Positions 5,818 to 21,305 of a stretch of 58,877 nucleotides of DNA are shown one piece after another (position 1 is the stretch's first letter; every line of letters starts with the position of its first letter). The notes beneath the pieces are model-generated. The model did no database searches. It saw only the letters and a program-made list of their open reading frames with translations, and had not been told where the DNA came from. This stretch comes from Naasia sp. (lineage in GTDB: Bacteria > Actinomycetota > Actinomycetes > Actinomycetales > Microbacteriaceae): positions 1 to 58,877 of the forward strand of contig NZ_JAODMK010000043.1 in assembly GCF_025465545.1 (NCBI RefSeq), given 5' to 3'. Both the position numbers and the translations under genes were made by a program.

Positions 5818-7413
5818 ATGGTGGTGAAGCCGATGTTCCGGCTTCGACCGAAAGCGACAGGTATGTCATCGCTGCTCAACTCCGACGCGACCACCCGCCC
5901 CTCGGCTGCGGCTGACGTCGCTCTCCGCGAGGTCAGCGACCGCCTGTTCGTTCGCGGTGAACTCGTCGCCGCCGACGGCACCCGCCGGACCCCGGTCGCA
6001 GACCCGGCGACGGGCCATCCACTGGGAAGCTTCACGGATCCCACAGGTGAGCAGGGCGAGCAGACCGTCGCCGCCGCCAACGATGCTCAGCGTCTCTGGA
6101 ACGCACGGACTCCACTGGTGCGGGCGGAGCTTCTCCACCAGGTCGCCACGAGGATGCGCGGGGACAGCCGGCTCATCGCAGAGCTCATGACACTGGAAAC
6201 AGGCAAGCCGTTCAAGGAGAGCGCCGACGAGATCGGCTGGGCGGCGTCCGCTCTGGACTACTACGCCGAGCTCGGCCGGCACTCGATCGGCACCATCCAT
6301 GGCACCGCGACACCAGGGCAGACCCAGTTCACCATCAAGGAGGCCATGGGGACAGTCGTCATCATCCTGCCCGCCAACTTCCCGATCCTGCTCATGATGT
6401 GGTCCGCAGCCGCAGCGCTCGCCGCCGGCAATGCCGTCATCGTGAAGCCGTCCGAGAATGCCGCGCTCACGTCGCTGGCCTTCATGCGGGCGTTCGGGGA
6501 ACTGGATGCCGGGCTCGTGCAGTGCCTCCCCGGCGGTGCCGACGTCGCGAAGCAGCTGGTCGGGCACCCGGAGACGCACATGGTGGCGTTCACGGGCAGC
6601 GTGCCAACGGGCCAGGCGGTCGCGCGCACCTGCGCGAGCAACTTCAAGCCCTTTCTCATCGAGGCATCGGGAAGCGACGCGTTCATCGTGATGCCATCCG
6701 CGGCCATCGAGGTGGCCGCGCGTGCTGCCACCTTCGCGGCCTTCCTCAACTGCGGACAGGTCTGCACCGCCGCCGAGAAGATCCTTGTCCACGAGGACGT
6801 GTACGACGAGTTCATGGCGGCATTCGTCCGCAACACCCGGCAGCTGCGGATCGGCCACGGGCTGGACCGGGTCGACATCGGCCCCATGGAGAACGCCCGG
6901 GAACGTCAGCGGATCGAGAAGCTCCTTGCGCGCGCCGTCGAGCAAGGCGCCAAGATCGTGACTGGTGGGGCGCGGCCAGACTTGGCCGGCGAGTTGTCAG
7001 ATGGATACTTCTTCATGCCCACGGTCATCGACAACTGCACGACCGAGATGGACCTGTACACCCAGGAGCTCTTCGGCCCCATCGCGGCCGTCTACAAGGT
7101 CTCGAGCTTCGACGAGGCGTTGCAGATCACCAACGCATCGCCGTTCGGGCTCGGCGCGACTCTCTACTCGACGGACATGCTGGAGGTCGACCGGGCACAG
7201 CGGGAGATCGTGACGGGCATGGTCTGGGTGAACGCTCCGCTGCTCGACAACGACGCAGGGCCGTTCGGCGGCCGCAAGCTCTCGGGAATCGGACGGCAGC
7301 TGGGAGCGGAGGGGCTGGACACCTTCCGGCACACCAAGCTCGTGATGGTGGATCCGGCCTCCAGCGAGCAGAGCTTCTGGTGGTTCCCGTACGCCGATGA
7401 TGAAGCGTGGTGA
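5818..7413 (+). CDS. NAD(P)-dependent aldehyde dehydrogenase
   Basis: A 531-residue aldehyde dehydrogenase. The catalytic glutamate is Glu282 in IEASGSDAF and the nucleophile is Cys316 in NCGQVCTAAE. The cofactor and oxyanion region FTGSVPTGQ is at 259-266. The EASGSD version of the usual ELGGKD motif is divergent but keeps the Glu. The ATG at 5818 has AGGAA nine bases upstream; ATG 5863 (MSSLL) is possible and would remove a 15-residue extension. Enzymes of this superfamily oxidise aldehydes to acids. Here it probably removes the aldehyde released by the amine oxidase (convergent, 82 bases away) or another product of the island. The 95-base gap to the divergent PucR gene should hold both promoters. 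Confidence 0.88.
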   Translation: MVVKPMFRLRPKATGMSSLLNSDATTRPSAAADVALREVSDRLFVRGELVAADGTRRTPVADPATGHPLGSFTDPTGEQGEQTVAAANDAQRLWNARTPLVRAELLHQVATRMRGDSRLIAELMTLETGKPFKESADEIGWAASALDYYAELGRHSIGTIHGTATPGQTQFTIKEAMGTVVIILPANFPILLMMWSAAAALAAGNAVIVKPSENAALTSLAFMRAFGELDAGLVQCLPGGADVAKQLVGHPETHMVAFTGSVPTGQAVARTCASNFKPFLIEASGSDAFIVMPSAAIEVAARAATFAAFLNCGQVCTAAEKILVHEDVYDEFMAAFVRNTRQLRIGHGLDRVDIGPMENARERQRIEKLLARAVEQGAKIVTGGARPDLAGELSDGYFFMPTVIDNCTTEMDLYTQELFGPIAAVYKVSSFDEALQITNASPFGLGATLYSTDMLEVDRAQREIVTGMVWVNAPLLDNDAGPFGGRKLSGIGRQLGAEGLDTFRHTKLVMVDPASSEQSFWWFPYADDEAW

Positions 7414-9185: not shown

Positions 9186-9680
9186 CTACCCGGCGACCCC
9201 GTGCCAGACCGCTCGCGCACCCGCGTCGCCGATCAGCACGACGTCGACGGTGGACCCGACCGCCACAGCCACGGCGACCACGGCGACGACGACGGTGATC
9301 GCGAGCCGAACCGGCGGGGCCGACAGTGCGGGCACACGGTCGCGGAATCGGAACCAGACCCACTCGAGGACACCGATGGCGAAGAGCCCGATCACCCAGG
9401 GCAGCAGGGTGTCGCCGAGCGCGATGTGCTGGTTGAGGAGCTGCGTTGCCGGCACCCGCGGCTCGAGCTTCTGCCCCGCCTGCACAGTGACGGGCACGAG
9501 CGCCACGAGGAGGAGGCCGGCGAGCGGCGTGACGATGCCGAGCCGACGTCGCGCGGCCGGCCACAGGGCGTGCAGCATCACGGCGAGCGACGCGAGAGGA
9601 ACTCCCACGACCACGGCGTGCACCAGGAGCACGTGCAGCGGGAGGCCGGCGAAGGTGTCGAGGTTCATGCTGGGGATCAC
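9186..9680 (-). CDS. DUF2231-like small membrane protein
   Basis: A 164-residue membrane protein with four hydrophobic segments, at about residues 15-37, 48-66, 90-110 and 125-150. The pattern PLHVLLVHAVVVGVPLA resembles the HP(V/L)H-type first helix of DUF2231 proteins, whose function is not established. The start may be the codon at 9680 or the ATG four codons later. It is the last gene of the minus-strand unit that starts at 13913; only 47 bases separate it from the RibD-like gene. A second DUF2231 protein sits at 40502-41008. Confidence 0.72.
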   Translation of the reverse strand: MIPSMNLDTFAGLPLHVLLVHAVVVGVPLASLAVMLHALWPAARRRLGIVTPLAGLLLVALVPVTVQAGQKLEPRVPATQLLNQHIALGDTLLPWVIGLFAIGVLEWVWFRFRDRVPALSAPPVRLAITVVVAVVAVAVAVGSTVDVVLIGDAGARAVWHGVAG

Positions 9681-9727
9681 GAGGCGGCGACGCCGATGGT
9701 TCAGACCGCGCCGCAGTGCGCCGCGCG

Positions 9728-10477
9728 TCAGCCGGGGGCGGGGGGAGCGGGGGCGCTCCCCGATGTCATGGCCAGGGGTTCACCCCGGGTGCCGTCGAAG
9801 CGATCGGAGAGGGCGTAGCGGAGCAGAGCCACGTCACCCACGGATCGGGCGGCCACGAGGTCCGCTCGATTCCCCGTCGTCCAGGGGAAACGGCCGTCGC
9901 CGACGAAGCGCGGTGCCCGCGAGTCGCCGATGAACACGGGGGCGACGGCGAGTTGGAGCTCGTCGGCGAGTCCCGCCGTGAGGAACTGGGTGAGGACGCT
10001 TCCGCCCCCCTCGACCATGAGACGTCGGATCCCGCGGCGGTGCAGGTCCTCGACCACCCCGCGCATCGTGACCCGCTGGCCCGCGTCCACGACGGTGGCG
10101 AACGTGCCGAGGCGGCGGCCGATCGCGGCGACAGCGGAGCTGGGACAGTAGACGAGCTTCTCCGCCGACCCGGTCGTCAAGAACCGGGCGTTCCGGTCGA
10201 GCGCGCCACGGGCCGTCACCGTCACCTTCACCGGCGAGGGTGACGCTCCTGCGGCCACGCGCCGCTCCTGCCGGGCCGCCGACCGCACGAGCAGCCGTGG
10301 ATCGTCGGCCCGGATCGTCTCCGCGCCCACGAGGATCGCGTCGCATCCGGCCCGGACCTCGTCGACCCGGTCGAGGTCGGCGCTGTTGGAGAGCATCAGC
10401 GGGTGGCGGTCGCCCGCGGCGAGGAAGCCGTCCATCGACATGCTGCAGCTCAGCACGGTGTACGGACGAGGACTCAT
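9728..10477 (-). CDS. RibD C-terminal/dihydrofolate-reductase-fold reductase
   Basis: A 249-residue protein of the RibD_C (dihydrofolate reductase-like) family. The N-terminus PYTVLSCSMSMDGFLAA is the substrate-side strand and loop. DAILVGAETIRADDPRL and RRLMVEGGGSVLTQFL are the NADPH-binding signatures of riboflavin-pathway pyrimidine reductases. There is no deaminase domain, so this is a stand-alone reductase and not full RibD. Its ATG overlaps the stop of the upstream flippase-like gene (ATGA). Known relatives reduce 5-amino-6-ribosylamino-uracil phosphate or its diamino precursor. Together with the PTPS-like gene in the same unit it suggests a pteridine- or pyrimidine-type intermediate. 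Exact substrate unknown. Confidence 0.85.
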   Translation of the reverse strand: MSPRPYTVLSCSMSMDGFLAAGDRHPLMLSNSADLDRVDEVRAGCDAILVGAETIRADDPRLLVRSAARQERRVAAGASPSPVKVTVTARGALDRNARFLTTGSAEKLVYCPSSAVAAIGRRLGTFATVVDAGQRVTMRGVVEDLHRRGIRRLMVEGGGSVLTQFLTAGLADELQLAVAPVFIGDSRAPRFVGDGRFPWTTGNRADLVAARSVGDVALLRYALSDRFDGTRGEPLAMTSGSAPAPPAPG

Positions 10478-11448
10478 GGTGCCGCCTTTCTCGGAGTGAG
10501 CGGTCGAGCGGCGATGGCGGACCGTGCGATCCGGTTCTGCCCATGGTTCCCGCGACCCAGGGCGAGCACAACGGCTCCGGGGAGAACGGCGATCAGGGCG
10601 AGCGCGCCATACGCGGTCGAGGCAGCCAGACCGTGGCCTGCGCCGAGACCGGCGGCCGCGAAGGCCGCCGCGGCGACCCCTTCACGCGGTCCCCAGCCGC
10701 CCAGGCTGAGGGGGAGCGCCATCGCGACCTGGACGGTCAGCGCGATCGGCAGCAGCGTGCCGGCGGCGTGCAGGGTTCCCGTGATCGATGCGGCGAGGAG
10801 GAACACGCACGAGTGAGCGAGCGTGACCAGGGTCGAGCCGGCCAGGATGGGAACCAGCACCTGCCGCGGAAGGAGCCTGATCCGCAGATCGCCGAGCACC
10901 GCCGCGAAGAACGGTGAGGGCGCCGAGTCCCGACCGCGTGCGCGCGCCAGAAGGGCGAGCCGAAGCAGCCCTGCGGCCGCCACCGCAACGCCGGCCGCTC
11001 CCACCGTCGCGACGCCGAGAGGGGTGTCGACGGCCAGCAGCGCCACGATCAGCAACGCCAGCTGAACCGCCTGGCCGCTCCCGCGGTCCCATGCGACGAT
11101 CCGGAGCCCGAGCCGCGCGCCGCCCGCCCGCGGGTCGTTCGCGAACCCGCGGTCGACGTCGCCCGCGACGCCGCCCACCAGGACGCTGTTGAGGAACTGA
11201 GATCGGTAGTAGGCGGGCACCGCCGATCGGAACGGGATGGGCGCGCCGAACGCGCGCGCGATGGCGGACCACCGCCAGGCGGCGGCGGCCGTGGCAAGAG
11301 CGGTGAGCAGGGCGGCGGCGAGCACGGCCCCGGCGGTCAGACTGGCCAGGCCGGTGAGGAACGGACCCGCGCCGAGGCGCCAGCCGAGCACGCCGAGGAT
11401 GAGGACGACCGCCGCGGGGCGGCCCCACCTTGCGATCGTTCTCGGCAT
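10474..11448 (-). CDS. Lysylphosphatidylglycerol-synthase TM-domain (UPF0104-type) membrane protein
   Basis: A 324-residue polytopic membrane protein with about eight hydrophobic helices. It resembles the flippase-like transmembrane domain of MprF/AglD proteins but has no aminoacyl-transferase domain. Family features visible are RSQFLNSVLVGGVAGDVDRG near residue 85 and the later PLSLGGWGPREG loop. Such proteins are thought to move lipid-linked products across the membrane. It overlaps the RibD-like gene by four bases and follows the glycosyltransferase gene by 48 bases, so the three are probably co-transcribed. Confidence 0.84.
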   Translation of the reverse strand: MPRTIARWGRPAAVVLILGVLGWRLGAGPFLTGLASLTAGAVLAAALLTALATAAAAWRWSAIARAFGAPIPFRSAVPAYYRSQFLNSVLVGGVAGDVDRGFANDPRAGGARLGLRIVAWDRGSGQAVQLALLIVALLAVDTPLGVATVGAAGVAVAAAGLLRLALLARARGRDSAPSPFFAAVLGDLRIRLLPRQVLVPILAGSTLVTLAHSCVFLLAASITGTLHAAGTLLPIALTVQVAMALPLSLGGWGPREGVAAAAFAAAGLGAGHGLAASTAYGALALIAVLPGAVVLALGRGNHGQNRIARSAIAARPLTPRKAAP

Positions 11449-11496
11449 CCCGTCCGCCTCTGTGCTGCCTACATCTGAAAGACGAGACAGGGGGCG

Positions 11497-12534
11497 CTAT
11501 GGTTCATCGCGCGCGGACGCCAGCACGCGGGCCGCGGTCGCCGCGGTGGTCTGCCAGGCCGGCAGCCCACGTCGCCGTTCGTGCGCCGCTGCGGTCAGCT
11601 GGGCGCGGAGGGCGGGCCGGGTCAGCCACGCCTCGAGCGCCTCAGCGAGCCCAGCCGGGTCGCCCGGAGGCACGAGCAGGCCGGGCCGCCGACTGTCGCC
11701 GGTGCCCATGGCCTCGCTGATGCCGCCCGTGTCGGCGGCGACCACCGGAATGCCGCAGGCGATCGCCTCCGTCACGACCATGCCGTAACTCTCCGTCAGG
11801 GAGGGGACGACCAGCAGGTCGGCGCCGTCGTAGAGCTCCCGGGTGCGGGTCGCCGGGCGAGGCTCGAGGAAGCGCACTCGGGGGGAGATCCCACTCGTCC
11901 GGGCCTGATCGTGGAGCCCGCGGGTGAACGCGACGTCGAGATCGGCCGCGCCGAGGAGGTCGCAGGTCCAGTCCAGGGCACGGATGCGGCGGAGCGCGTC
12001 GAGGAGCACGTCCTGGCCCTTGTGCGGCAGGAGCGCGGCGACGCAGCGCAGCCGGGCTCCCGAGGGCGAGGCGACGACAGGGAGGGCCTGATCCACTCCG
12101 GGCGGGGCGGCGACGATGCGGCCCGGCTCTGCATACCCCGTCTCCCGCAGCTGCCGGCGTGCCCACTCGCTGGTGGTGATCACGGCTCGGGCGGCGCGGA
12201 GGACGAGGGGATATCCGCTCGACTCGTCCAGGCCGGCCGGGAGCATGTGCAGGAGGATCACGATGCGCAGACGGCGAGCATGAGCTGCGACCACGGCGGG
12301 CGCTGCGGCGGCGAGCAGGCCGTCCATGAGGACCGGCTCCGCCTGCGGCAGCGCCGTCAGCTCGTCGAGAAGGGCGCGCTCATCGACTTGCCGCGCGCCG
12401 CCGATCCGCACGAGCCGCACCTGCCACCCTGCACGCACGAGCTCAGAGCGCAGCCTGCGGTCGTAGCGGTTGCCGCCGCTCGGGTGCGCCGGGTCGTCGA
12501 GGGCGCCGGGCACCAGGAAGTGCACACGGTTCAC
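11497..12534 (-). CDS. GT4-family glycosyltransferase
   Basis: A 345-residue GT-B glycosyltransferase. The C-terminal half has the GT4 donor-site pattern: [20 protein letters not shown] with the conserved E-x7-E pair, then [16 protein letters not shown]. The N-terminal half starts with [19 protein letters not shown], a glycine-rich acceptor loop. The GTG start overlaps the stop of the PTPS-like gene (GTGA), a sign of translational coupling. It would transfer a sugar from a nucleotide donor to an unknown acceptor in the cytoplasm, plausibly a lipid or a pteridine-type product made by the neighbouring enzymes. Confidence 0.87.
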
Positions 12535-12929
12535 AGCGTCCTCTCGTAGCTGGCGGAGGCGACCGGGGACTCGTGCAGCGTGACGTGGACGGCGGCCAGC
12601 GCGGCTCCGTCGGCGCCGAGGGCTCCCGCGCCGATCCGGTCGGCGAGTCGATCCGCGACGAGCTTCGCGAGCACCTCCGTCGTCGTGTTCAGCTCTGCCA
12701 GGTCGGGCACCTCATCGAGGTTCCGCAGGTCGAGCGGCTGGAGTACGGTGCGGAGCGCCGCGGCGGCGAGACCGAGGTCGGTGACGATGCCGTCCGCGTT
12801 GAGGTCCCGGCGGCGCAGCGTGACCTCCACGGCGTAGGTGGCGCCGTGCAGGCGCTGGGCAGGACCGAATGCCTCGCCCCGCAGACTGTGCGCCACCATG
12901 ACGTGGTCCCGGACCGTGATGCTGAACAT
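12531..12929 (-). CDS. 6-pyruvoyl-tetrahydropterin synthase/QueD-like protein with altered zinc site
   Basis: A 132-residue protein of the PTPS/6-carboxytetrahydropterin synthase fold. Alignable points are VAHSLRG (first zinc histidine), [11 protein letters not shown] (equivalent of LHGHNYxVxV), the [22 protein letters not shown] region and the C-terminal [14 protein letters not shown]. In known enzymes zinc is held by three histidines, two of them in HGH; here the second of that pair is alanine (HGA). Zinc binding or chemistry may therefore differ. It lies three bases after the MDR dehydrogenase gene and overlaps the glycosyltransferase start. No queC, queE or folate gene is near, so queuosine or folate synthesis is not the obvious role. 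Confidence 0.82.
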
Positions 12930-12932
12930 GGG

Positions 12933-13913
12933 TCATCCGTCCTCGTAGGTGATGGTGTGGGCGAGCGCGGGCAGGCGGCCCGCCGCGAGGTCCTGCAGGA
13001 CACGGGGCAGCTCCGGGAACGGGCTCGACCCGGTGAGCAGGACGTCGAATGCGGGATCCCGCAGGAGGGCGACGGCGAGAGCAAGGCGATCCCTCGTCGA
13101 CCGGCTGCCTCGCCGCGCCGGAGCGACCATGCCGACCTGGCTGGAGCGGATCGTGAGTCGCCGGGCGTGGAACGCCGCGCCGAGGCGCAGGGTGACCGCC
13201 TGCTCCCCGTACCAGCTGAGCTCGACCACGGTGCCCTCGGTGCGGAGCAGGTCGAGCGAGGACTGCAGCCCGGCGGCGGTGGCGCTCGCGTGGTAGACGA
13301 CGTCCTGGTCGCCGTCGGCATCGGCGGGGGAGGCGAACGAGGCGCCCAGAGCGGCCGCCACCTCCCGTCGGGCCGGATCGACGTCGACGAGGGTGATCCG
13401 AGTGCCGGGGATCCCGGTGAGAAGGCGGGTCAGGCAGCAGCCCAGGAGGCCGCCGCCGACGACGGAGATGCGGTCCCCGACCCGGGCAGGCACGTCCCAC
13501 AGCGCGTTGACCGCGGTCTCCACGATGCCGGCCAGGACCGCCCGCCGGGCGGGCACGTCGTCCGGCACCGGAGTGAGCGCGTCGACGGGGACGACATACG
13601 CGGTCTGGTGGGGGTACAGGCAGAAGACCGTCCTGCCCCGCAGCGCCTCGGGGCCGTCCTGCACGATCCCGACGCTCAGATAGCCGTATTTCACGGGGCC
13701 GGGGAACTCGCCCTCCTGGAAGGGGGCCCGCATCGTCCCGTGCTCGCTCTCGGGCACCCCGCCCCGGAACACGAGGGCCTCCGTGCCGGGGCTGACCGCC
13801 GAGAATCGCGCCCGGACCAGCGCTTCGCCCGGTCCGGGAGCCGCGAGCCGCGCCGGCCGGATCTCGCCATGTCCGGGCTCGCGGACCCAGAACGCCTGCG
13901 CTGTTTCGGTCAC
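12933..13913 (-). CDS. MDR-family (zinc-type alcohol dehydrogenase-like) oxidoreductase
   Basis: A 326-residue medium-chain dehydrogenase/reductase. The NAD(P)-binding motif is ISVVGGGLLGCCLTRLL near residue 170, and the substrate domain begins GEALVRARFSAVSPGTEALV. The usual catalytic Cys-His pair and the four structural cysteines of zinc alcohol dehydrogenases are absent, so it may be zinc-free or reductase-like. It starts with GTG and is the first gene of the minus-strand unit. A TACGGT box six bases before the GTG suggests a leaderless transcript. Role in the cluster: probably a redox step on the product of the PTPS- or RibD-like enzymes. Substrate unknown. Confidence 0.84.
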   Translation of the reverse strand: MTETAQAFWVREPGHGEIRPARLAAPGPGEALVRARFSAVSPGTEALVFRGGVPESEHGTMRAPFQEGEFPGPVKYGYLSVGIVQDGPEALRGRTVFCLYPHQTAYVVPVDALTPVPDDVPARRAVLAGIVETAVNALWDVPARVGDRISVVGGGLLGCCLTRLLTGIPGTRITLVDVDPARREVAAALGASFASPADADGDQDVVYHASATAAGLQSSLDLLRTEGTVVELSWYGEQAVTLRLGAAFHARRLTIRSSQVGMVAPARRGSRSTRDRLALAVALLRDPAFDVLLTGSSPFPELPRVLQDLAAGRLPALAHTITYEDG

Positions 13914-13919
13914 GGCGGA

Positions 13920-13925
13920 ACCGTA
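13920..13925 (-). promoter_or_regulatory. Putative -10 box for a leaderless transcript
   Basis: TACGGT on the minus strand, six bases before the GTG of the MDR gene, with no ribosome binding site between. This spacing is typical of TANNNT boxes of leaderless actinobacterial mRNAs. No convincing -35 hexamer is visible. The 93-base space to the divergent CDP-alcohol phosphatidyltransferase must also hold that gene's promoter. Confidence 0.45.
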
Positions 13926-14006
13926 CCGTGCGGAGCCGTTCTGCGCGCCGGTGAACCGGACGCGGCCGTGCCTCGTGGTACCCGGACAACGAGGAACGAG
14001 GAGCGG

Positions 14007-14744
14007 GTGGCATCGGTTCGACGTGGCGCACTGCTGCTCGCCTCGGTCCAGGTGGCGGTGATCGGCGTCCTCGCGGCCGCGGGGGCGCTCGGCGCAGCGG
14101 CGGCAGCGGCGGCGGTCGCCTACGGTGCGGCGTGCGACCTGCTCGCGCTTCGTGGTCTCCGCCGGGCGGGTGCGACCTCGGTCGGTCTCGCCAACGCGGT
14201 GACCTGGACGCGAGGCGCTCTCACGGGCGGTGCGGCGGGCCTGGCCGTGCAGGAGTACCCGGGAGCTCGGGTGGCGGGCGTGCTGGTCGCGTGCGCCGCG
14301 CTCGCACTGGCCCTGGACGCCGTGGACGGACGGCTCGCGCGCTGGACCCGGACGGCGACCCCGTTCGGAGGCCGATTCGACATGGAGGTCGACGCCTCAC
14401 TGATCCTGGTGCTCAGTGTCGCCGCTGTCCCGGTGCTCGGACCATGGGTGCTCCTCGTGGGGGCGGCGCGCTACCTGCTGCTCGGCGCCGAGCTCGCGCT
14501 GCCCCGGCTCCGCCGGGCGGTCCCGGCCACGCGGTGGCGCAAGGCGGTCGCCGGCGTGCAGGGCGCGGTCCTCGTCGTGGTGTGTGCGCGCGTGCTGCCC
14601 ATCGAGGCGGCCGAGGCGCTCGCCGGGGTGTCCGCCTCGGCACTCGCGGTCTCCTTCGGCACGCAGCTGTGGTGGGTCACCCGGGAGGGGCGCCGACCGG
14701 CGAGGGCAGGAGTGCCCGAGGTGGCGAGTGTTCCGGCACCGTGA
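14007..14744 (+). CDS. CDP-alcohol phosphatidyltransferase family protein
   Basis: A 245-residue integral membrane enzyme carrying the complete CDP-alcohol phosphotransferase motif: DAVDGRLAR, eight residues, G, three residues, D (in GGRFD), three residues, D. Both metal-binding aspartate pairs are present. Six or so hydrophobic helices surround it. The GTG at 14007 was chosen because GAGGAACGAGGAG lies directly upstream and the hydrophobic region begins at once; the frame is open for a further 1.4 kb upstream, but only as a shadow of the opposite strand. Enzymes of this family join a CDP-activated lipid to an alcohol (glycerol phosphate, inositol phosphate and others). The acceptor here is unknown. 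It overlaps the sulfatase gene. Confidence 0.86.
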   Translation: MASVRRGALLLASVQVAVIGVLAAAGALGAAAAAAAVAYGAACDLLALRGLRRAGATSVGLANAVTWTRGALTGGAAGLAVQEYPGARVAGVLVACAALALALDAVDGRLARWTRTATPFGGRFDMEVDASLILVLSVAAVPVLGPWVLLVGAARYLLLGAELALPRLRRAVPATRWRKAVAGVQGAVLVVVCARVLPIEAAEALAGVSASALAVSFGTQLWWVTREGRRPARAGVPEVASVPAP

Positions 14745-16374
14745 GGACCGCGGATCGCGCTGGCGGCCCTCGATCCCGGGGGTCGCGTCCGTCGCGGCAG
14801 TCCTCCTCGTGTGGGCCGCGCTCGTCCTGCCGGACACGTTCGGGGCCTCAGGGGCGGCCGCCAGCGTGCGCGTGCCGCTGGAAGGCATCCTGCTGGGGGC
14901 GATCCTCCTCGTCCTTCCCCGACGAGCGGCACGGGTCGTCGCCGTCGTGCTCGGGATCGCGATCGCCGTGCTCACCCTGCTGAAGGTCCTCGATCTCGGC
15001 TTCCGCGCAACGGTGAACCGTGCATTCGACCCGGCGGCCGATTGGGTCCTGCTCGGCTCCGCGGTCGGCGTCCTCGCCGACTCGACGGGACCCGCCTGGG
15101 CGGCGATCCTGGTGGGCGGGACCGTCGTCCTGAGCATCGCGGCGGTCGTCGCACTCGCGCTCGCGTCGCGGCGGATCGCCCGGATCGTGCATGCGGACCG
15201 GCGCCGGACGTCAGCGGTCCTCGGCGTCGTCGGGGCAGGGTGGTCTGTGCTCGCGCTGCTCGGTCTGCAGATCGCGCCCGGCCTCGCGGTCGCGTCTGCG
15301 GACGAGGCGTCCTTCGCCGTCGACGAGGTGAGCCGCGCCGTCGCCTCCGCCACGGCGCTCGCCTCCTTCGCCGCCCAGGTGGACGCGCCGGACCCCTACG
15401 GCCGAGCCGACCCCTCCGCCCTGCTCGGCAAGCTCCGCGGCAAGGACGTCCTGCTCGTCTTCGTGGAGAGCTACGGGCAGGTGGCGGTGCGGGGGTCCTC
15501 GTTCTCCGGCTCCATCGACGCAGCGCTTCAGGCGGACACGCGCGAGCTGTCGGCGGCCGGCTACTCGGCAGAGAGCGCGATGCTCACCTCGCCGACCTTC
15601 GGCGGGATCAGCTGGCTCGCGCATTCCACTCTTCAGTCGGGCCTGTGGGTGCCGGATCAACGCAGCTACGACCGCCTGCTGACGAGCTCCCGCTTGACGA
15701 TCTCCTCGGCGTTCTCCCGCGCCGGCTGGGGAACGGTCTCCGACGCGCCCTCGGATCGGCGGCCGTGGCCCGAGGGGCGCGCCTTCTACCGCTTCGACCG
15801 GATGTACGACGCCGACAATGTCGGGTACGCCGGGCCGCAGTTCGGCTACGCGACCATGCCCGACCAGTTCACCCTGGAGCGGTTCCGTCAACTCGAGCTC
15901 GGCGGCGGCCACCGGCCCGTCATGGCGGAGATCGACCTGGTCAGCTCCCACACCCCGTGGACGCCGCTGCCGCACCTCGTCGATGGGGACGCGCTGGGGA
16001 ACGGATCCCTCTTCGATCCCATGCCGGCCGATGGCCCGTCTCCGGAGCTCGCGTGGCAGGATCCGAGCGAGGTCCAGGCCCGCTACGCCCGCTCGATCCA
16101 GTACTCGATCGACTCCCTGGTGGGCTTCGTGACCCGATCGAAGGACCGCAGCCTGGTCGTGGTCCTGCTGGGCGACCACCAGCCTGCGACGATCGTCAGC
16201 GGGACGGAAGCGTCCCATGATGTCCCCATCACGATCATCGCCGCGGACCCCGCGGTGTTCCGCGCGATCGATTCATGGCAGTGGACCGCCGGCATGCTGC
16301 CGGACCCTGCGGGACCGGTCTGGCCGATGGACCGGTTCCGGAACCGGTTCTTCGACGCGTTCGGGTCCCGCTGA
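14728..16374 (+). CDS. Membrane-anchored sulfatase/phosphoglycerol-transferase-like protein (alkaline phosphatase superfamily)
   Basis: A 548-residue protein with about five N-terminal transmembrane helices (residues 10-190) and an extracytoplasmic sulfatase-fold domain (about 215-540). KDVLLVFVESYG is the first metal-binding strand, SPTFGGISWLAH the region of the nucleophilic Ser/Thr, and VVLLGDHQP the second metal site, as in LtaS/MdoB-type phosphoglycerol transferases. The GTG at 14728 overlaps the upstream gene by 17 bases and needs only a weak AGGTGG box. A role in transferring or trimming phospho-alcohol groups on a cell-surface glycolipid fits the CDP-alcohol phosphatidyltransferase next to it. 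Confidence 0.84.
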   Translation: MFRHREDRGSRWRPSIPGVASVAAVLLVWAALVLPDTFGASGAAASVRVPLEGILLGAILLVLPRRAARVVAVVLGIAIAVLTLLKVLDLGFRATVNRAFDPAADWVLLGSAVGVLADSTGPAWAAILVGGTVVLSIAAVVALALASRRIARIVHADRRRTSAVLGVVGAGWSVLALLGLQIAPGLAVASADEASFAVDEVSRAVASATALASFAAQVDAPDPYGRADPSALLGKLRGKDVLLVFVESYGQVAVRGSSFSGSIDAALQADTRELSAAGYSAESAMLTSPTFGGISWLAHSTLQSGLWVPDQRSYDRLLTSSRLTISSAFSRAGWGTVSDAPSDRRPWPEGRAFYRFDRMYDADNVGYAGPQFGYATMPDQFTLERFRQLELGGGHRPVMAEIDLVSSHTPWTPLPHLVDGDALGNGSLFDPMPADGPSPELAWQDPSEVQARYARSIQYSIDSLVGFVTRSKDRSLVVVLLGDHQPATIVSGTEASHDVPITIIAADPAVFRAIDSWQWTAGMLPDPAGPVWPMDRFRNRFFDAFGSR

Positions 16375-16712: not shown

Positions 16713-17771
16713 ATGACTTTCATCGCGCGCCGAGCCGGAGCGGCGGCGCTGGCCGTGGGCCTTCTCGCGACCGTGGCCGGCTGCTCCAACTCGGGTTCCA
16801 GCTCGGGAGACGCCGGCGCGAGCGCCGGCACCGCAACGAAGGCCTCGCTCATCCTCATCACCCCGACACCGATCGGCTCCAACAACTTCCTGCAGCTCGC
16901 GGCGGACGGCGCCAAGGAGGCAGGCACCAAGTACAGCGCCTCCGTCGACGTCTACGAGAGTGAGGACCCGACCAGCATCCAGCAGAACCTCGATGCCGCC
17001 ATCCGGGAGAAGCCGGACGTGATCATCGGTGTCAGCTTCAGCGTGCTCGATCAGTTCACCCAGGCGGCGGCGGACAACCCCGACCAGCAGTTCCTGCTGA
17101 TCGACACGACCCCTGCCGAACCGGCCGACAATCTGACCTCGGCGGCCTTCAAGGAGTACGAGGCCACCTATCTGACCGGCGTGGAGGCGGGCCTGCTCAG
17201 CGAGAAGGGCAATGTGGGCGTCGTCGCGGCGCTCGACACCCCGTTCATCCACCGCTGGGTCGACCCGTTCTTCGCGGGCGCGGCCAGCGTCAACGATGCC
17301 GTGAAGACCCAGGTGCAGTACGTCGGCGGCGACAACCCGTTCGGCGACCAGGCCAGGGCGAAGGCCCAGGCGACCATCCTCGGTGAGGGCGGCGCGGACT
17401 ACGTGCAGGCAGCGGCGTCAGGCGGCAACACCGGCGTCTTCGAGGCGGCCGAGCAGAGCGGGTTCAAGGCGTTCGGGGTGGATACCAACCAGTGCCCGGA
17501 GTCGCCCGGCAACGTCGTCGACAACGCCATCAAGCGCGTCGACGTCGCCCTGCTCAACTCGGTCGGCGACATTCTCGACGGCACGACCGGCGGCACCACC
17601 GAGTACGGCCTCAAGGAGGGCGGCGTCGGCCTCACCGGGCTCGAGGACGGGGTCGCCGACTCCCAGTGCCTCATCGCCGACCACCCCGACGTGATCGAGA
17701 AGGTCTCGGCAGTCCGCGACCAGATCGTGTCCGGCGAGCTCAAGGTTGAGGACCCGCTGACCGCCGGATGA
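16713..17771 (+). CDS. BMP-family substrate-binding lipoprotein (nucleoside ABC importer)
   Basis: A 352-residue lipoprotein. Residues 1-24 are a type II signal peptide with lipobox TVAGC, Cys24 being the lipid-modified residue, followed by a Ser/Gly-rich tether. The mature domain has BMP/PnrA features: repeated IREKPDVIIGVSFS-type strands, DQQFLLIDT, YLTGVEAGLLSEKGNVGVV and FGVDTNQ. It captures the ligand outside the cell for the ABC importer that follows. Members of this family bind purine nucleosides, and the nucleoside hydrolase at the end of the operon supports that. It overlaps the ATPase gene by four bases. Confidence 0.9.
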   Translation: MTFIARRAGAAALAVGLLATVAGCSNSGSSSGDAGASAGTATKASLILITPTPIGSNNFLQLAADGAKEAGTKYSASVDVYESEDPTSIQQNLDAAIREKPDVIIGVSFSVLDQFTQAAADNPDQQFLLIDTTPAEPADNLTSAAFKEYEATYLTGVEAGLLSEKGNVGVVAALDTPFIHRWVDPFFAGAASVNDAVKTQVQYVGGDNPFGDQARAKAQATILGEGGADYVQAAASGGNTGVFEAAEQSGFKAFGVDTNQCPESPGNVVDNAIKRVDVALLNSVGDILDGTTGGTTEYGLKEGGVGLTGLEDGVADSQCLIADHPDVIEKVSAVRDQIVSGELKVEDPLTAG

Positions 17772-19318
17772 CGGACGCCGCAGCAGAGCTGAGGGGCATC
17801 AGCAAGAGATTCGACGCCGTCGTGGCCAACGACGGCGTCGATCTCGTGCTCCGGCGGGGGACAATCCACGCCGTGATGGGGGAGAACGGCGCCGGAAAGT
17901 CGACGCTGATGTCCATCCTCTTCGGGCTCCTGCGGCCCGACTCCGGCCAGATCCTGGTCGGCGGCGTCGAGCGGCACTTCCGCGGGCCGCTCGACGCGAT
18001 CGCGGCGGGTCTCGGAATGGTGCACCAGCACTTCCGGCTGTTCGACTCCATGACCGTCGCCGAGAACGTCGTCTATGGAGCAGAACCCCGACGGCGCGGG
18101 CGGCTCGACCGGACGGCGGCAGCCGAGCGGGTGCGCGAGCTGAGTGACCGCTACGGGCTCGACACCGATCCCGACTCGGTGGTCGGAACGCTGTCGGCGG
18201 GCGCGAGGCAGCGGGTCGAGATCCTGAAGGCCCTGCATCGCGACGCCGAGATCCTCATCCTGGACGAGCCGACCGCTGTGCTCACCCCGGTGGAGGTCGA
18301 CTCGCTCTTCGCCGTGCTGCGGCGTGCGGCGGATGAGGGCGCCACAGTCGTGCTCGTCACCCACAAGATCCACGAGGTGCTCGCGATCAGCGACGAGGTG
18401 ACCGTGCTGCGCGACGCGCGCGTCACAGGCCGCTTCCGCACCGCGGAGGCGACTGGTTCGGCGCTCGTCCAGTCGATGACCGGGCGCGAGGTGACCGAGG
18501 TCGCCAACGCGGGCACGGGAGAGCCGGGCGACGAGGCTCTCCAGGTCACCGGGCTCACCGTCGTCGATCGCGGGGTGCACCGTGTGCGGGACGTGTCGTT
18601 CACGGTGCGTCGTGGGGAGATCGTCGGGGTCGCCGGCGTGTCCGGCAACGGGCAGCGCGAGGTCGTCGCGGCGATCCTCGGCACAGGTTCGGCTGAGTCG
18701 GGGGAGATCCGCCTCCTCGGGCGGGATGTCGCATCGCTCGACGTGCGCCGTCGGCGAGCCATCGGACTCGCCGTCGTTCCCGAGGACCGACGCGGGGAAG
18801 GCATGGCGGTCACCATGACGACCGCGGAGAACCTCGCCCTCGGTCACCACCGGACCGCGCCGATCGGGGCATCCAGGGGCTGGCGTCGCGGCTGGCTCTC
18901 CCTCCGGGCCCAGCGGGACATGGCCCGCCGGCTGATCGCCGACTACGACGTGCGCACCTCGGGCGAACGCCAGCCCGTCGGTGCTCTCTCGGGCGGCAAT
19001 GCGCAGAAGGTGGTGATCGCCAGGGAGCTGTCCCACCGCGCGCCGGTGCTGATCGCGGAGCAGCCCACCCAGGGGGTGGACATCGGCGCGATCGAGTCCA
19101 TCCACCAGCGGCTCCTCGACTACCGCCGTGATGGCGGAGCCGTGCTCCTGGTGTCGCACGAGATCGCCGAGCTCCAGGCCCTCGCCGATCGGGTCCTGGT
19201 GATGTTCGCGGGGCGGATCGTCGCGGAGTACTCGCGGGCGGACGCCACGACCGCGCGCATCGGCGCCGCGATGGCCGGCACGGGGGAGTCCTCCCGGAGC
19301 GAAGGAGGAGCCTCGTGA
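17768..19318 (+). CDS. ABC transporter ATP-binding protein with two nucleotide-binding domains (nucleoside importer)
   Basis: A 516-residue tandem ABC ATPase. The first domain has Walker A GENGAGKST near residue 40, signature LSAGARQRVEI and Walker B ILILDEPTAVL. The second has the degenerate P-loop GVSGNGQREVV and signature LSGGNAQKVVI, as in sugar- and nucleoside-type importers (YufO/NupA-like). It powers import with the two permeases encoded next. Overlaps of four bases on both sides indicate one operon with coupled translation. Cytoplasmic face of the membrane. Confidence 0.92.
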   Translation: MTDAAAELRGISKRFDAVVANDGVDLVLRRGTIHAVMGENGAGKSTLMSILFGLLRPDSGQILVGGVERHFRGPLDAIAAGLGMVHQHFRLFDSMTVAENVVYGAEPRRRGRLDRTAAAERVRELSDRYGLDTDPDSVVGTLSAGARQRVEILKALHRDAEILILDEPTAVLTPVEVDSLFAVLRRAADEGATVVLVTHKIHEVLAISDEVTVLRDARVTGRFRTAEATGSALVQSMTGREVTEVANAGTGEPGDEALQVTGLTVVDRGVHRVRDVSFTVRRGEIVGVAGVSGNGQREVVAAILGTGSAESGEIRLLGRDVASLDVRRRRAIGLAVVPEDRRGEGMAVTMTTAENLALGHHRTAPIGASRGWRRGWLSLRAQRDMARRLIADYDVRTSGERQPVGALSGGNAQKVVIARELSHRAPVLIAEQPTQGVDIGAIESIHQRLLDYRRDGGAVLLVSHEIAELQALADRVLVMFAGRIVAEYSRADATTARIGAAMAGTGESSRSEGGAS

Positions 19319-20403
19319 CAGCGGCCACCCCGACAGAGGCGCCCGAGCCGCGCGGCGCTGCAGCACGCCGGCTCTTCCGGCTCGCCGCCCGCCATCCCGG
19401 GGTGGTGCCCGTCGGTGCGGTGGTGCTGGCCGTGCTGATCGGCGCGGCGATCATCGCGGCAGCCGGGCTCGACCCGATCACGGCATACTCCGCGGTCCTG
19501 CAGGGGGCGCTGGAGCCCGACAGCCTCGACTACACGTTCTCCGTCTGGGGGTTCACCTGCGGCATGGCGCTGGCCGCCGCCATCCCGCTCCGGATGGGCG
19601 AGTTCAACCTCGGGGGCAACGGCCAGCTCGTGCTCGGGGGCCTCGCGGCGACGGTTGTCGCGGGTGCCCTTCCCGGACCGCTCGCGGTGCCCCTCGCCGT
19701 GCTCGCCGCCGCCGTCCTCGCCGCGGCCTTCGGAGCGGTGTCCGCGCCACTGGCGACCCGCTTCAAGATCCCCATCATCATCAGCACCCTGCTGCTCTCG
19801 CCCATCGCGGTCGCGGTGGTCTCCTTCCTCGTCCGCTTCCCGCTCGCCGAGGCCGGGTCCGGGGTGGCGCAGACGGCCCGCCTGCCCGAGGACGCGCGGA
19901 TGTGGTCGATCGGGGACCTCTCCTACAGCAACGTCGGTCTGCTGATCCTGGTCGCCATGATGGCCGTCTTCTGGATCGTCGACTCACGCACCGCGGTCGG
20001 CTTCGAGCTCCGGGTCGTCGGGGCCAACCGCCGCTTCGGGGCGTATGGCGGAGTCGTGGTCGGCCGCCTTGCTCTCGGGGCAATGGCCGCGGCCGGCGCA
20101 GCAGCTGGCATCGTCGGCGCGGTGATCGTGCTCTCCTCGCCGTACCGGCTGATCGACGGCGCGCTGCTCTCGCCCGGCTACACCTTCGCCGGCTTCGCGG
20201 CCGCGCTGCTCGCCGGCGGCCGTCCCCTCCTGATCCCCGTGACCTCGGTGCTGTTCGCGGTCCTCCAGGTCGGCGGCGCCGCGATGGAGCGAACCGCGGA
20301 CGTTCCCCGGCAGCTCTCCGACCTCCTGCAGGGCGTCGTCATCATCGTGCTCGCGCTGCGCACCGTGCTCGACGCCGGCCGCACCGGACGGAGCGAGCAC
20401 TGA
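19315..20403 (+). CDS. ABC transporter permease (nucleoside importer, first subunit)
   Basis: A 362-residue permease of the BPD_transp_2 type with about ten helices. RMGEFNLGGNGQLVLGG near residue 95 is the conserved loop of YufP-like permeases, and ELRVVGANRRFGAYGGV is the ATPase-contact segment. The GTG start overlaps the ATPase stop. It pairs with the next gene to make the membrane channel. Confidence 0.9.
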   Translation: MTAATPTEAPEPRGAAARRLFRLAARHPGVVPVGAVVLAVLIGAAIIAAAGLDPITAYSAVLQGALEPDSLDYTFSVWGFTCGMALAAAIPLRMGEFNLGGNGQLVLGGLAATVVAGALPGPLAVPLAVLAAAVLAAAFGAVSAPLATRFKIPIIISTLLLSPIAVAVVSFLVRFPLAEAGSGVAQTARLPEDARMWSIGDLSYSNVGLLILVAMMAVFWIVDSRTAVGFELRVVGANRRFGAYGGVVVGRLALGAMAAAGAAAGIVGAVIVLSSPYRLIDGALLSPGYTFAGFAAALLAGGRPLLIPVTSVLFAVLQVGGAAMERTADVPRQLSDLLQGVVIIVLALRTVLDAGRTGRSEH

Positions 20404-21305
20404 TGCACGTCTTCGAGTGGGGATTCGTCGCCGCAGTGCTCCTCGCCGCCACCCCGGTCCTCTATGCCGCGCTGGCGGGTGCGCTGTCGGCTCAGGTGGG
20501 CGTGTTCAACATCGCGCTCGAAGGGCAGATGCTCTGGGGCGCCTTCGCCGCCGTCGCAGGAAGCTACTACACCGGCAGCGCCTGGGCGGGCATCGGCATC
20601 GCCGTTCTGAGCAGCGCGATCTTCTCGGTCGTGCTCGCCGTCGGCGCCGCCCGGTTCCGGGCGGATCCCATCATCATCGCCATCGGAACGAACCTCCTCG
20701 CCCTCGGGCTCACCGGCTTCCTGATGCGGGTCCTGTTCGACGTGTCCGGCACGTTCTCGCCCCGTGGCCTGCAGGGCCTCCCCGCCATGTCCTTCCTCCG
20801 TGACATCCCGGTCCTCGGCCCGGTGTTCGGCGGGCAGACCGTGCTGGTGCCGCTCGCGTTCGTGCTCTGCATCGCCGCCGGTCTGTGGCTGCGGTCGAGC
20901 GTCGGCGGGCTGCGCCTCCGCGGGATCGGCGAGCACGCGGCAGCGGCGGCGAGCCTCGGCGTCAACGTCGCCCGCACCCAGACCTGGACGACCATCGTCG
21001 GCGGTGCTCTCTGCGGGCTGGCGGGAGCTCAGCTCGCGCTCGGCAACGTCACGGTCTTCACCGAGAACATGACCGCCGGTCGAGGTTGGATCGCCGTCGC
21101 TGCGGTCATGCTGGTCGGCAATCGCCCGCTGTGGGTCCCGATCGCGTGCCTCGGCTTCGGCGCGGCCGAGGCCTTCGGCTTCCGCCTGCAGGGGCTCGGC
21201 GCACCGCAGCAGCTGACCGACGCCGCGCCGTACGCCATCACCCTTCTCGTGCTCGTCGCCACCCGGATCCGCTTCGGCGCCGCCCGGCGGGCCCTCTCCT
21301 CTTGA
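20403..21305 (+). CDS. ABC transporter permease (nucleoside importer, second subunit)
   Basis: A 300-residue permease, the YufQ-like partner of the previous subunit. GVFNIALEGQMLWGAF is the conserved N-terminal loop and LRLRGIGEHAAAAASLGVNV the ATPase-contact region. The frame is open much further upstream, but the ATG at 20403 shares one base with the previous stop (TGATG) and begins exactly at the conserved N-terminus. It is 23 bases from the nucleoside hydrolase gene. Confidence 0.9.
   Translation: MHVFEWGFVAAVLLAATPVLYAALAGALSAQVGVFNIALEGQMLWGAFAAVAGSYYTGSAWAGIGIAVLSSAIFSVVLAVGAARFRADPIIIAIGTNLLALGLTGFLMRVLFDVSGTFSPRGLQGLPAMSFLRDIPVLGPVFGGQTVLVPLAFVLCIAAGLWLRSSVGGLRLRGIGEHAAAAASLGVNVARTQTWTTIVGGALCGLAGAQLALGNVTVFTENMTAGRGWIAVAAVMLVGNRPLWVPIACLGFGAAEAFGFRLQGLGAPQQLTDAAPYAITLLVLVATRIRFGAARRALSS

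Follow-up and report, generated by a model that had tools for sequence, protein, structure and literature searches.

What does a gene cluster make that sets enzymes of pterin and pyrimidine chemistry beside enzymes of lipid and glycan synthesis? Such a cluster occupies positions 9728–16374 of contig NZ_JAODMK010000043.1 of Naasia sp. (assembly GCF_025465545.1), the whole 58,877-nucleotide stretch of which was analyzed and is called the window here. The cluster consists of two divergent units. The minus-strand unit encodes a medium-chain dehydrogenase/reductase (MDR), a protein with the 6-pyruvoyltetrahydropterin synthase (PTPS) fold, a family 4 glycosyltransferase (GT4), a flippase-like membrane protein and a RibD_C-type reductase; the plus-strand unit encodes a CDP-alcohol phosphatidyltransferase family protein and an LtaS-like membrane protein. 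We think it probable that the window holds a compact form of a conserved orphan cluster, one that converts a GTP-derived precursor into a glycosylated, possibly lipid-linked molecule, although each reaction, like the product, is our reading of the sequences. An earlier note on this DNA had proposed a GTP-derived, glycosylated product, and this is largely supported, the GTP origin by GTP cyclohydrolase II (GCH II) genes that join the cluster in relatives and the glycosylation by the recurrence of GT4; the export and phospholipid anchoring that the note also suggested are conjectural.

If these genes form a unit, do they occur together elsewhere? With the PTPS-fold protein alone as the query, at least 77 loci were found in named genomes, 50 of which have full flanks (8 kb and 7 kb or more); profiles of twelve families were run on 147 loci, 19 of them short duplicate fetches. 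Counts of full-flank loci, here and below, are among the matches listed, and the phylum labels are provisional, as bins of metagenome-assembled genomes may err. The MDR and GT4 genes, which stand beside the PTPS-fold gene in the window, are each present at 49 of the 50 full-flank loci, and the MDR gene directly adjoins the PTPS gene on the same strand at 43. The other partners are a methyltransferase (40), the CDP-alcohol gene (31), the flippase-like gene (28), GCH II (26), RibD_C (25), a creatininase-family gene (24) and the LtaS-like gene (10). At least four of these nine partners are found at 41 loci, comprising 32 of 33 in Actinomycetota and 9 of 17 in other groups. When eleven of the profiles were run on 20 control stretches of ~19 kb from the same genomes, there were zero matches; because these stretches were empty, the clustering exceeds chance. 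The earlier note had proposed looking for co-occurrence beyond close relatives and for a GCH II gene in some species; the set is indeed a conserved unit across phyla, and GCH II joins it at the loci counted above.

Carriers of the cluster include Actinomycetota, soil actinomycetes among them, Pseudomonadota, Myxococcota and plasmids. Neighborhoods were covered for 20 of the 25 matches in the window's family (the window's own left out), 15 of the 90 matching genomes of a phylum-wide sample and 15 of 24 matching plasmid records. The distribution within the family is patchy: a PTPS match was found in 25 of 249 genomes (weak in two) and in none of the four other genomes of the same genus listed in the family sample. 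All 15 full loci of this sample contain PTPS, MDR, GT4, flippase-like and RibD_C genes and at least four partners, and the CDP-alcohol, LtaS-like and methyltransferase genes are each present at 14 of the 15. Across the phylum, 90 of 296 genomes gave a PTPS match, mostly a weak one; 13 of the neighborhoods covered have full flanks and 6 contain at least four partners. Nine of the plasmid neighborhoods carry at least four partners and three carry the PTPS gene alone, and Rhizobiaceae plasmids hold complete sets in which sulfatase, flippase, CDP-alcohol, ribA, MDR, PTPS, GT4, methyltransferase and RibD genes lie together. The cluster is widespread and apparently mobile.

The PTPS-fold protein (12531–12929, minus strand; Pfam PTPS, 7.2e-27) has as its best solved relative 3d7j, "Uncharacterized protein SCO6650" (E = 1.2e-46 over residues 1–132), with the next match at 1.2e-4. 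In residue counts that leave out L131–L149 (duplicates), L128, L129, L150, L177, L178 and fragments, the catalytic Cys is replaced by Ala24 in 121 of 122 relatives and the third zinc-binding His by Ala30 in 116 of 122; five of the six remaining rows (L124–L127 and L130) keep this His, and the sixth (L123) lacks that part of the protein. The first two zinc-binding His residues are each retained in 121 of 122 relatives, and Glu120, which we take to be the substrate-anchoring Glu near the C terminus, is found in all 122. The family thus resembles QueD and PTPS-I, -II and -III (COG0720) in its T-fold, two zinc-binding His residues and substrate Glu but has Ala in place of the Cys and one zinc-binding His. 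The signatures given for PTPS-I to -III in PMC5041015 are CxxxHGH, CxxxxxHGH or ExxHGH; the window protein reads AQRLHGA, and its family fits none of the three. The PTPS-V subgroup, left unresolved there, might equal the SCO6650-type family. Since the catalytic Cys and one zinc-binding His are lost, the protein probably does not work as an ordinary PTPS or QueD, and a zinc-dependent reaction of either kind is improbable; binding of a head group is not. The label "PTPS/QueD-like" in the earlier note therefore holds for the fold and probably not for the activity. The S. coelicolor protein SCO6650 is likewise said to lack zinc and the catalytic triad and to be inactive as a PTPS.

How would GTP enter the pathway? 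SCO6655 is reportedly a GCH II with Met at its switch position that yields the formamidopyrimidine intermediate FAPy. At what is presumably the corresponding position, the 32 GCH II proteins encoded beside a creatininase gene have Met (21), His (10) or Gln (1) and never Tyr, and all 12 GCH II proteins without a creatininase have Tyr. In a tree, the 32 creatininase-linked proteins form one clade (support 87) with well-supported Met and His/Gln halves; as the tree shows a single clade, we dropped Fisher's p of 2.9e-9 as a measure of the strength of this pattern. The 2006 paper on S. coelicolor GCH II is cited in PMC3509567, and PMC9478397 describes a bacterial creatininase-like formamidase (BrbF) that acts on FAPy. 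At three loci (L088, L109 and L114), GCH II and RibD_C are fused into one protein, which points to sequential steps. The only GCH II of the window's genome is of the Tyr type and lies on another contig, ~1.4 kb from a RibD_C match stronger than the cluster's own. As the window cluster has no GCH II, this housekeeping enzyme would supply the diaminopyrimidine, in which case no deformylase is needed. The genome's own creatininase (G000 C18) was considered as the missing deformylase and rejected, as it scores 113 bits compared with 386–419 for 32 of 35 cluster copies, the other three being fragmentary (124–272 bits). The partner genes lend good support to an entry from GTP.

Reduction by the RibD_C protein (9728–10477, minus strand; Pfam RibD_C, 2.8e-40) is a likely following step. 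The protein has the RibD_C fold without a deaminase domain, as do Rib7 and ArfC, and its solved relatives are 5xux and 6p8c, the latter an archaeal-type diaminopyrimidine reductase. Its best NCBIfam model is TIGR01508, the archaeal 2,5-diamino-6-ribosylamino-pyrimidinone 5′-phosphate reductase, with 132 bits, under the cut-off of 186. None of seven cluster relatives exceeds that cut-off; two match TIGR01508 best and five a generic RibD C-terminal model.

The MDR (12933–13913, minus strand; ADH_zinc_N, 9.8e-7, under that model's cut-off) is zinc-less, with no Cys at any position that is conserved in 90% of the 116 rows. By profile it resembles BchC, its relatives are annotated as zinc-binding alcohol dehydrogenases, and the folds nearest to its predicted model (pLDDT 95) are those of polyol and secondary-alcohol dehydrogenases. 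Solved relatives of the GT4 protein (11497–12534, minus strand; Pfam GT4 models, 7.2e-30) include PimA and tetrahydrobiopterin glucosyltransferase (9v0l, E = 6.4e-8); the latter likeness is at most suggestive, and several other GT4 enzymes of known structure gave stronger matches. A glycosylation and a methylation are likely as types of reaction. No match to the methyltransferase was found in the window's genome by a search that had no positive control.

The remaining genes form what we call the envelope module. The flippase-like protein (10474–11448, minus strand) matches Pfam LPG_synthase_TM (2.8e-19), and the CDP-alcohol protein (14007–14744, plus strand; Pfam CDP-OH_P_transf, 2.7e-12) has a complete DxxDGxxAR(x8)GxxxDxxxD motif, as do 69 of 69 rows. 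The LtaS-like protein (14728–16374, plus strand, the GTG at 14728 being our choice of start) gave no Pfam match at E 0.01 and one irrelevant weak match at E 10; a weak Pfam Sulfatase match was found in two of three relatives scanned, one of them above the cut-off. The top Foldseek hits of its AlphaFold model (pLDDT 87.9) are LtaP and LtaS (E = 1.1e-8, TM by target 0.48). E247 and H408 are conserved in 33 of 33 rows and D483 and H484 in 31 of 33, and these residues may belong to a metal site. The modeled protein seems to share membrane helices and an alkaline-phosphatase-type domain with the lipoteichoic acid synthases LtaS and LtaP but differs in sequence (12–15% identity in LtaS/LtaP rows) and in having a gene for a CDP-alcohol phosphotransferase as the partner of its own. 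Through this module the product may be attached to lipid or transferred to the surface, though this would not hold for every carrier.

How might these proteins act together? GCH II would make a ribosylated diaminopyrimidine from GTP directly, as the Tyr form or, as in the window, as the housekeeping enzyme. Alternatively, the Met or His form would yield formylated FAPy, and the creatininase-family partner would deformylate it. RibD_C would reduce the ribosyl group to a ribityl one. The polyol side chain may undergo a redox reaction catalyzed by the MDR, and the PTPS-fold protein, being zinc-less, could bind the 2-amino-4-oxo-pyrimidine or pterin head and aid a zinc-free step, such as ring closure. 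GT4 would then add a sugar and, in most relatives, the methyltransferase would cap the product. In Actinomycetota and on some Pseudomonadota plasmids, the flippase-like, CDP-alcohol and LtaS-like proteins may transport this product or link it, in the form of a phospho-alcohol, to lipids or to material of the cell surface.

A more specific scheme, which we regard as rather doubtful, is a route to pterin that is free of GTP cyclohydrolase I and ends in a lipid-linked glycosylated pterin. RibD_C would turn the diaminopyrimidine ribosylamine into a ribitylamine and the MDR, resembling polyol dehydrogenases, would oxidize C2′ to a ketone, two steps that together amount to the Amadori rearrangement carried out by GTP cyclohydrolase I. 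The zinc-less PTPS-fold protein would close the ring to give dihydroneopterin phosphate, and GT4 and the methyltransferase would complete the glycosylated pterin. The CDP-alcohol enzyme might couple the 3′-phosphate to diacylglycerol, yielding a pterin phospholipid that the LtaS-like protein would hand to a surface acceptor.

Several observations weigh against a conserved pathway from GTP to a glycosylated, possibly lipid-linked product. GCH II is not universal (26 of 50 full-flank genome loci), and the window cluster contains no GCH II, creatininase or methyltransferase gene. The RibD_C gene is absent at 24 of the 32 loci with both GCH II and creatininase; in five genomes of one genus (L206–L210, taken as Streptomyces, with a PTPS akin to SCO6650), the nearest RibD_C, 51–53% identical, lies outside the cluster, where it adjoins a second, Tyr-type GCH II. 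The link between GCH II and creatininase amounts to about one evolutionary event rather than 44 independent ones; no GCH II was found at two creatininase loci (L048 and L050), and one of the 12 Tyr-type proteins without a creatininase (L129) is outside any cluster. Moreover, the cluster creatininase is nearer to the MftE and creatininase models than to ArfB (NF033501), against which both copies scanned score 38 bits, with a cut-off of 180. Three streptomycete plasmids (L150, L177 and L178) carry this PTPS without any partner. Finally, the envelope genes are missing at most non-actinobacterial genome loci, which leaves room for a core product that is not a lipid.

This last point also bears on a reading that we consider possible, if clearly less probable than the one we favor: the core of RibD_C, MDR, PTPS-fold protein, GT4 and methyltransferase would make a soluble pterin or pyrimidine glycoside, imagined as a redox, light-screening or signaling compound like the cyanobacterial pterin glycosides, and the lipid genes would be an independent neighboring module. 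The 17 non-actinobacterial full-flank loci among the matches listed keep MDR at 16, GT4 at 16 and RibD_C at 15, with the CDP-alcohol and LtaS-like genes at one each, and tetrahydrobiopterin glucosyltransferase is among the solved GT4 relatives. However, several other GT4 enzymes match better, and the CDP-alcohol gene is present at 30 of 33 actinobacterial full-flank loci, as at all but one of those in the family sample, and on Rhizobiaceae plasmids it recurs together with genes for the flippase-like and LtaS-like proteins. Could the envelope come first instead, with the CDP-alcohol, LtaS-like, flippase-like and GT4 proteins building a polyol-phosphate glycolipid and the GTP-related part supplying or modifying one group? 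The fold of the LtaS-like protein is nearest to those of LtaS and LtaP and the CDP-alcohol motif is complete, but GT4 and MDR/PTPS persist at loci where no envelope gene was found (e.g., L077, L094 and L110), and we regard this as unlikely.

We give still less weight to the possibility that the window copy is a decaying remnant that has lost its supply and methylation genes. Its cluster has no GCH II and its genome gave no methyltransferase match in the search described above, yet all frames are intact and the same reduced set, with no methyltransferase or GCH II and the rest kept, is found at L157, in the genome with the nearest PTPS of the family sample (72% identical). The CDP-alcohol gene of L157 was missed by gene calling and is visible at the same place in the short fetch L131. 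Least probable of all is that the PTPS-like and RibD-like genes are ordinary cofactor genes serving queuosine, folate or riboflavin synthesis, as the annotation of relatives as 6-carboxytetrahydropterin synthase would suggest. The earlier note had named such a need as the finding that would undo its proposal, and the cluster genes do not account for one in queuosine or riboflavin: QueC was not found in the genome (the control was positive in 12 of 14 genomes), the genome has one PTPS only, which departs from the PMC5041015 signatures cited above, and GCH II and the strongest RibD_C match are neighbors on another contig. We rejected a housekeeping role on these grounds; folate itself was not searched.

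The nearest known system is in Streptomyces coelicolor, where the SCO6650 region is a partly studied example of the cluster. The gene order at L117 (PTPS-GT4-methyltransferase-flippase-creatininase-GCH II) appears to fit locus numbers 6650 to 6655. The window's cluster shares the PTPS-fold protein with SCO6650–SCO6655. It differs in including RibD_C and LtaS-like genes and in having none for GCH II, the creatininase or the methyltransferase. To our knowledge, SCO6650 and SCO6655 have been studied singly, without a pathway. We found no paper describing the cluster in the open-access literature searched; most subscription journals were outside this scope, and we do not claim that it is absent from print.

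Entry into archaeal riboflavin and F420 synthesis uses ArfA, ArfB and ArfC. The clusters resemble this system and bacterial BrbF (PMC9478397) in the succession of GTP, FAPy, deformylation and reduction by a deaminase-less RibD_C protein. A creatininase-family deformylase is common to the Arf and BrbF systems and cluster relatives, but the clusters have GCH II in place of ArfA, a creatininase under the ArfB cut-off, many extra enzymes and no recognized deaminase gene. Cyanobacterial pterin glycosides, which start from GTP cyclohydrolase I, offer a GT4-type transferase and a pterin-like head for comparison (9v0l); we know of no envelope module in those systems.

The eight frames described in the earlier note are all present. 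Its statement that stop/start overlaps occur at most junctions is generous, as they occur at three of six: 4 nt for RibD_C/flippase, 4 nt for GT4/PTPS and, with the GTG start assumed, 17 nt for CDP-alcohol/LtaS-like. The other junctions are one 3-nt gap and two gaps of 47–48 nt, counting in a small membrane protein (9186–9680, minus strand) that had been read as a DUF2231 member of the cluster. We judge this co-directional neighbor to lie outside the conserved cluster: it matches nothing in Pfam at E 0.01 and gives a single weak, irrelevant hit at E 10, and of the 147 loci scanned it is present at one, the window itself. The divergent units are separated by 93 bp (13914–14006) in which, from the coordinates, both promoters presumably lie. 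The neighboring aldehyde dehydrogenase, flavin amine oxidase and BMP lipoprotein were also rejected as members, as they were absent from the 77 loci on which they were used as queries. Past the cluster, 16713–21305 encodes a BMP-type lipoprotein, an ABC ATPase and two permease-like frames that probably serve nucleoside uptake.

Other genes recur near relatives. A DUF1537-type kinase gene (SBD_N/NBD_C in the one scanned) follows GT4 or the methyltransferase at L073, L075, L076, L086, L094, L097, L099 and others (19 frames), largely in Acetobacteraceae/Rhodospirillales. A cytochrome b gene adjoins RibD in Thiodictyon and Rhizobiaceae plasmid clusters (L151, L153, L180 and L181), where a redox role is conceivable, and at L153, L181 and L183 a gene for an FkbM-type methyltransferase is close to the cluster, accompanied at L183 by an inositol-monophosphatase-like gene. 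On L150, L177 and L178, the PTPS gene lies near cupin, MBL-fold hydrolase, sigma-70 and BTAD-regulator genes and, in two of them, a MEKHLA-domain gene. Read by eye, the C-terminal part of the RibD_C protein of L206–L210 seems to resemble a deaminase domain.

What would such a cluster mean for these bacteria? A gene set that crosses phyla and has an entry, a core and an envelope module places SCO6650 and SCO6655 in a single pathway open to testing. That a GCH II would stop at FAPy would also make sense, since a dedicated deformylase adjoins it, and the gene set suggests that many genes annotated as 6-carboxytetrahydropterin synthase are something else. If the product is indeed a pterin- or pyrimidine-bearing glycolipid, bacteria would have a surface molecule or cofactor of a new class.

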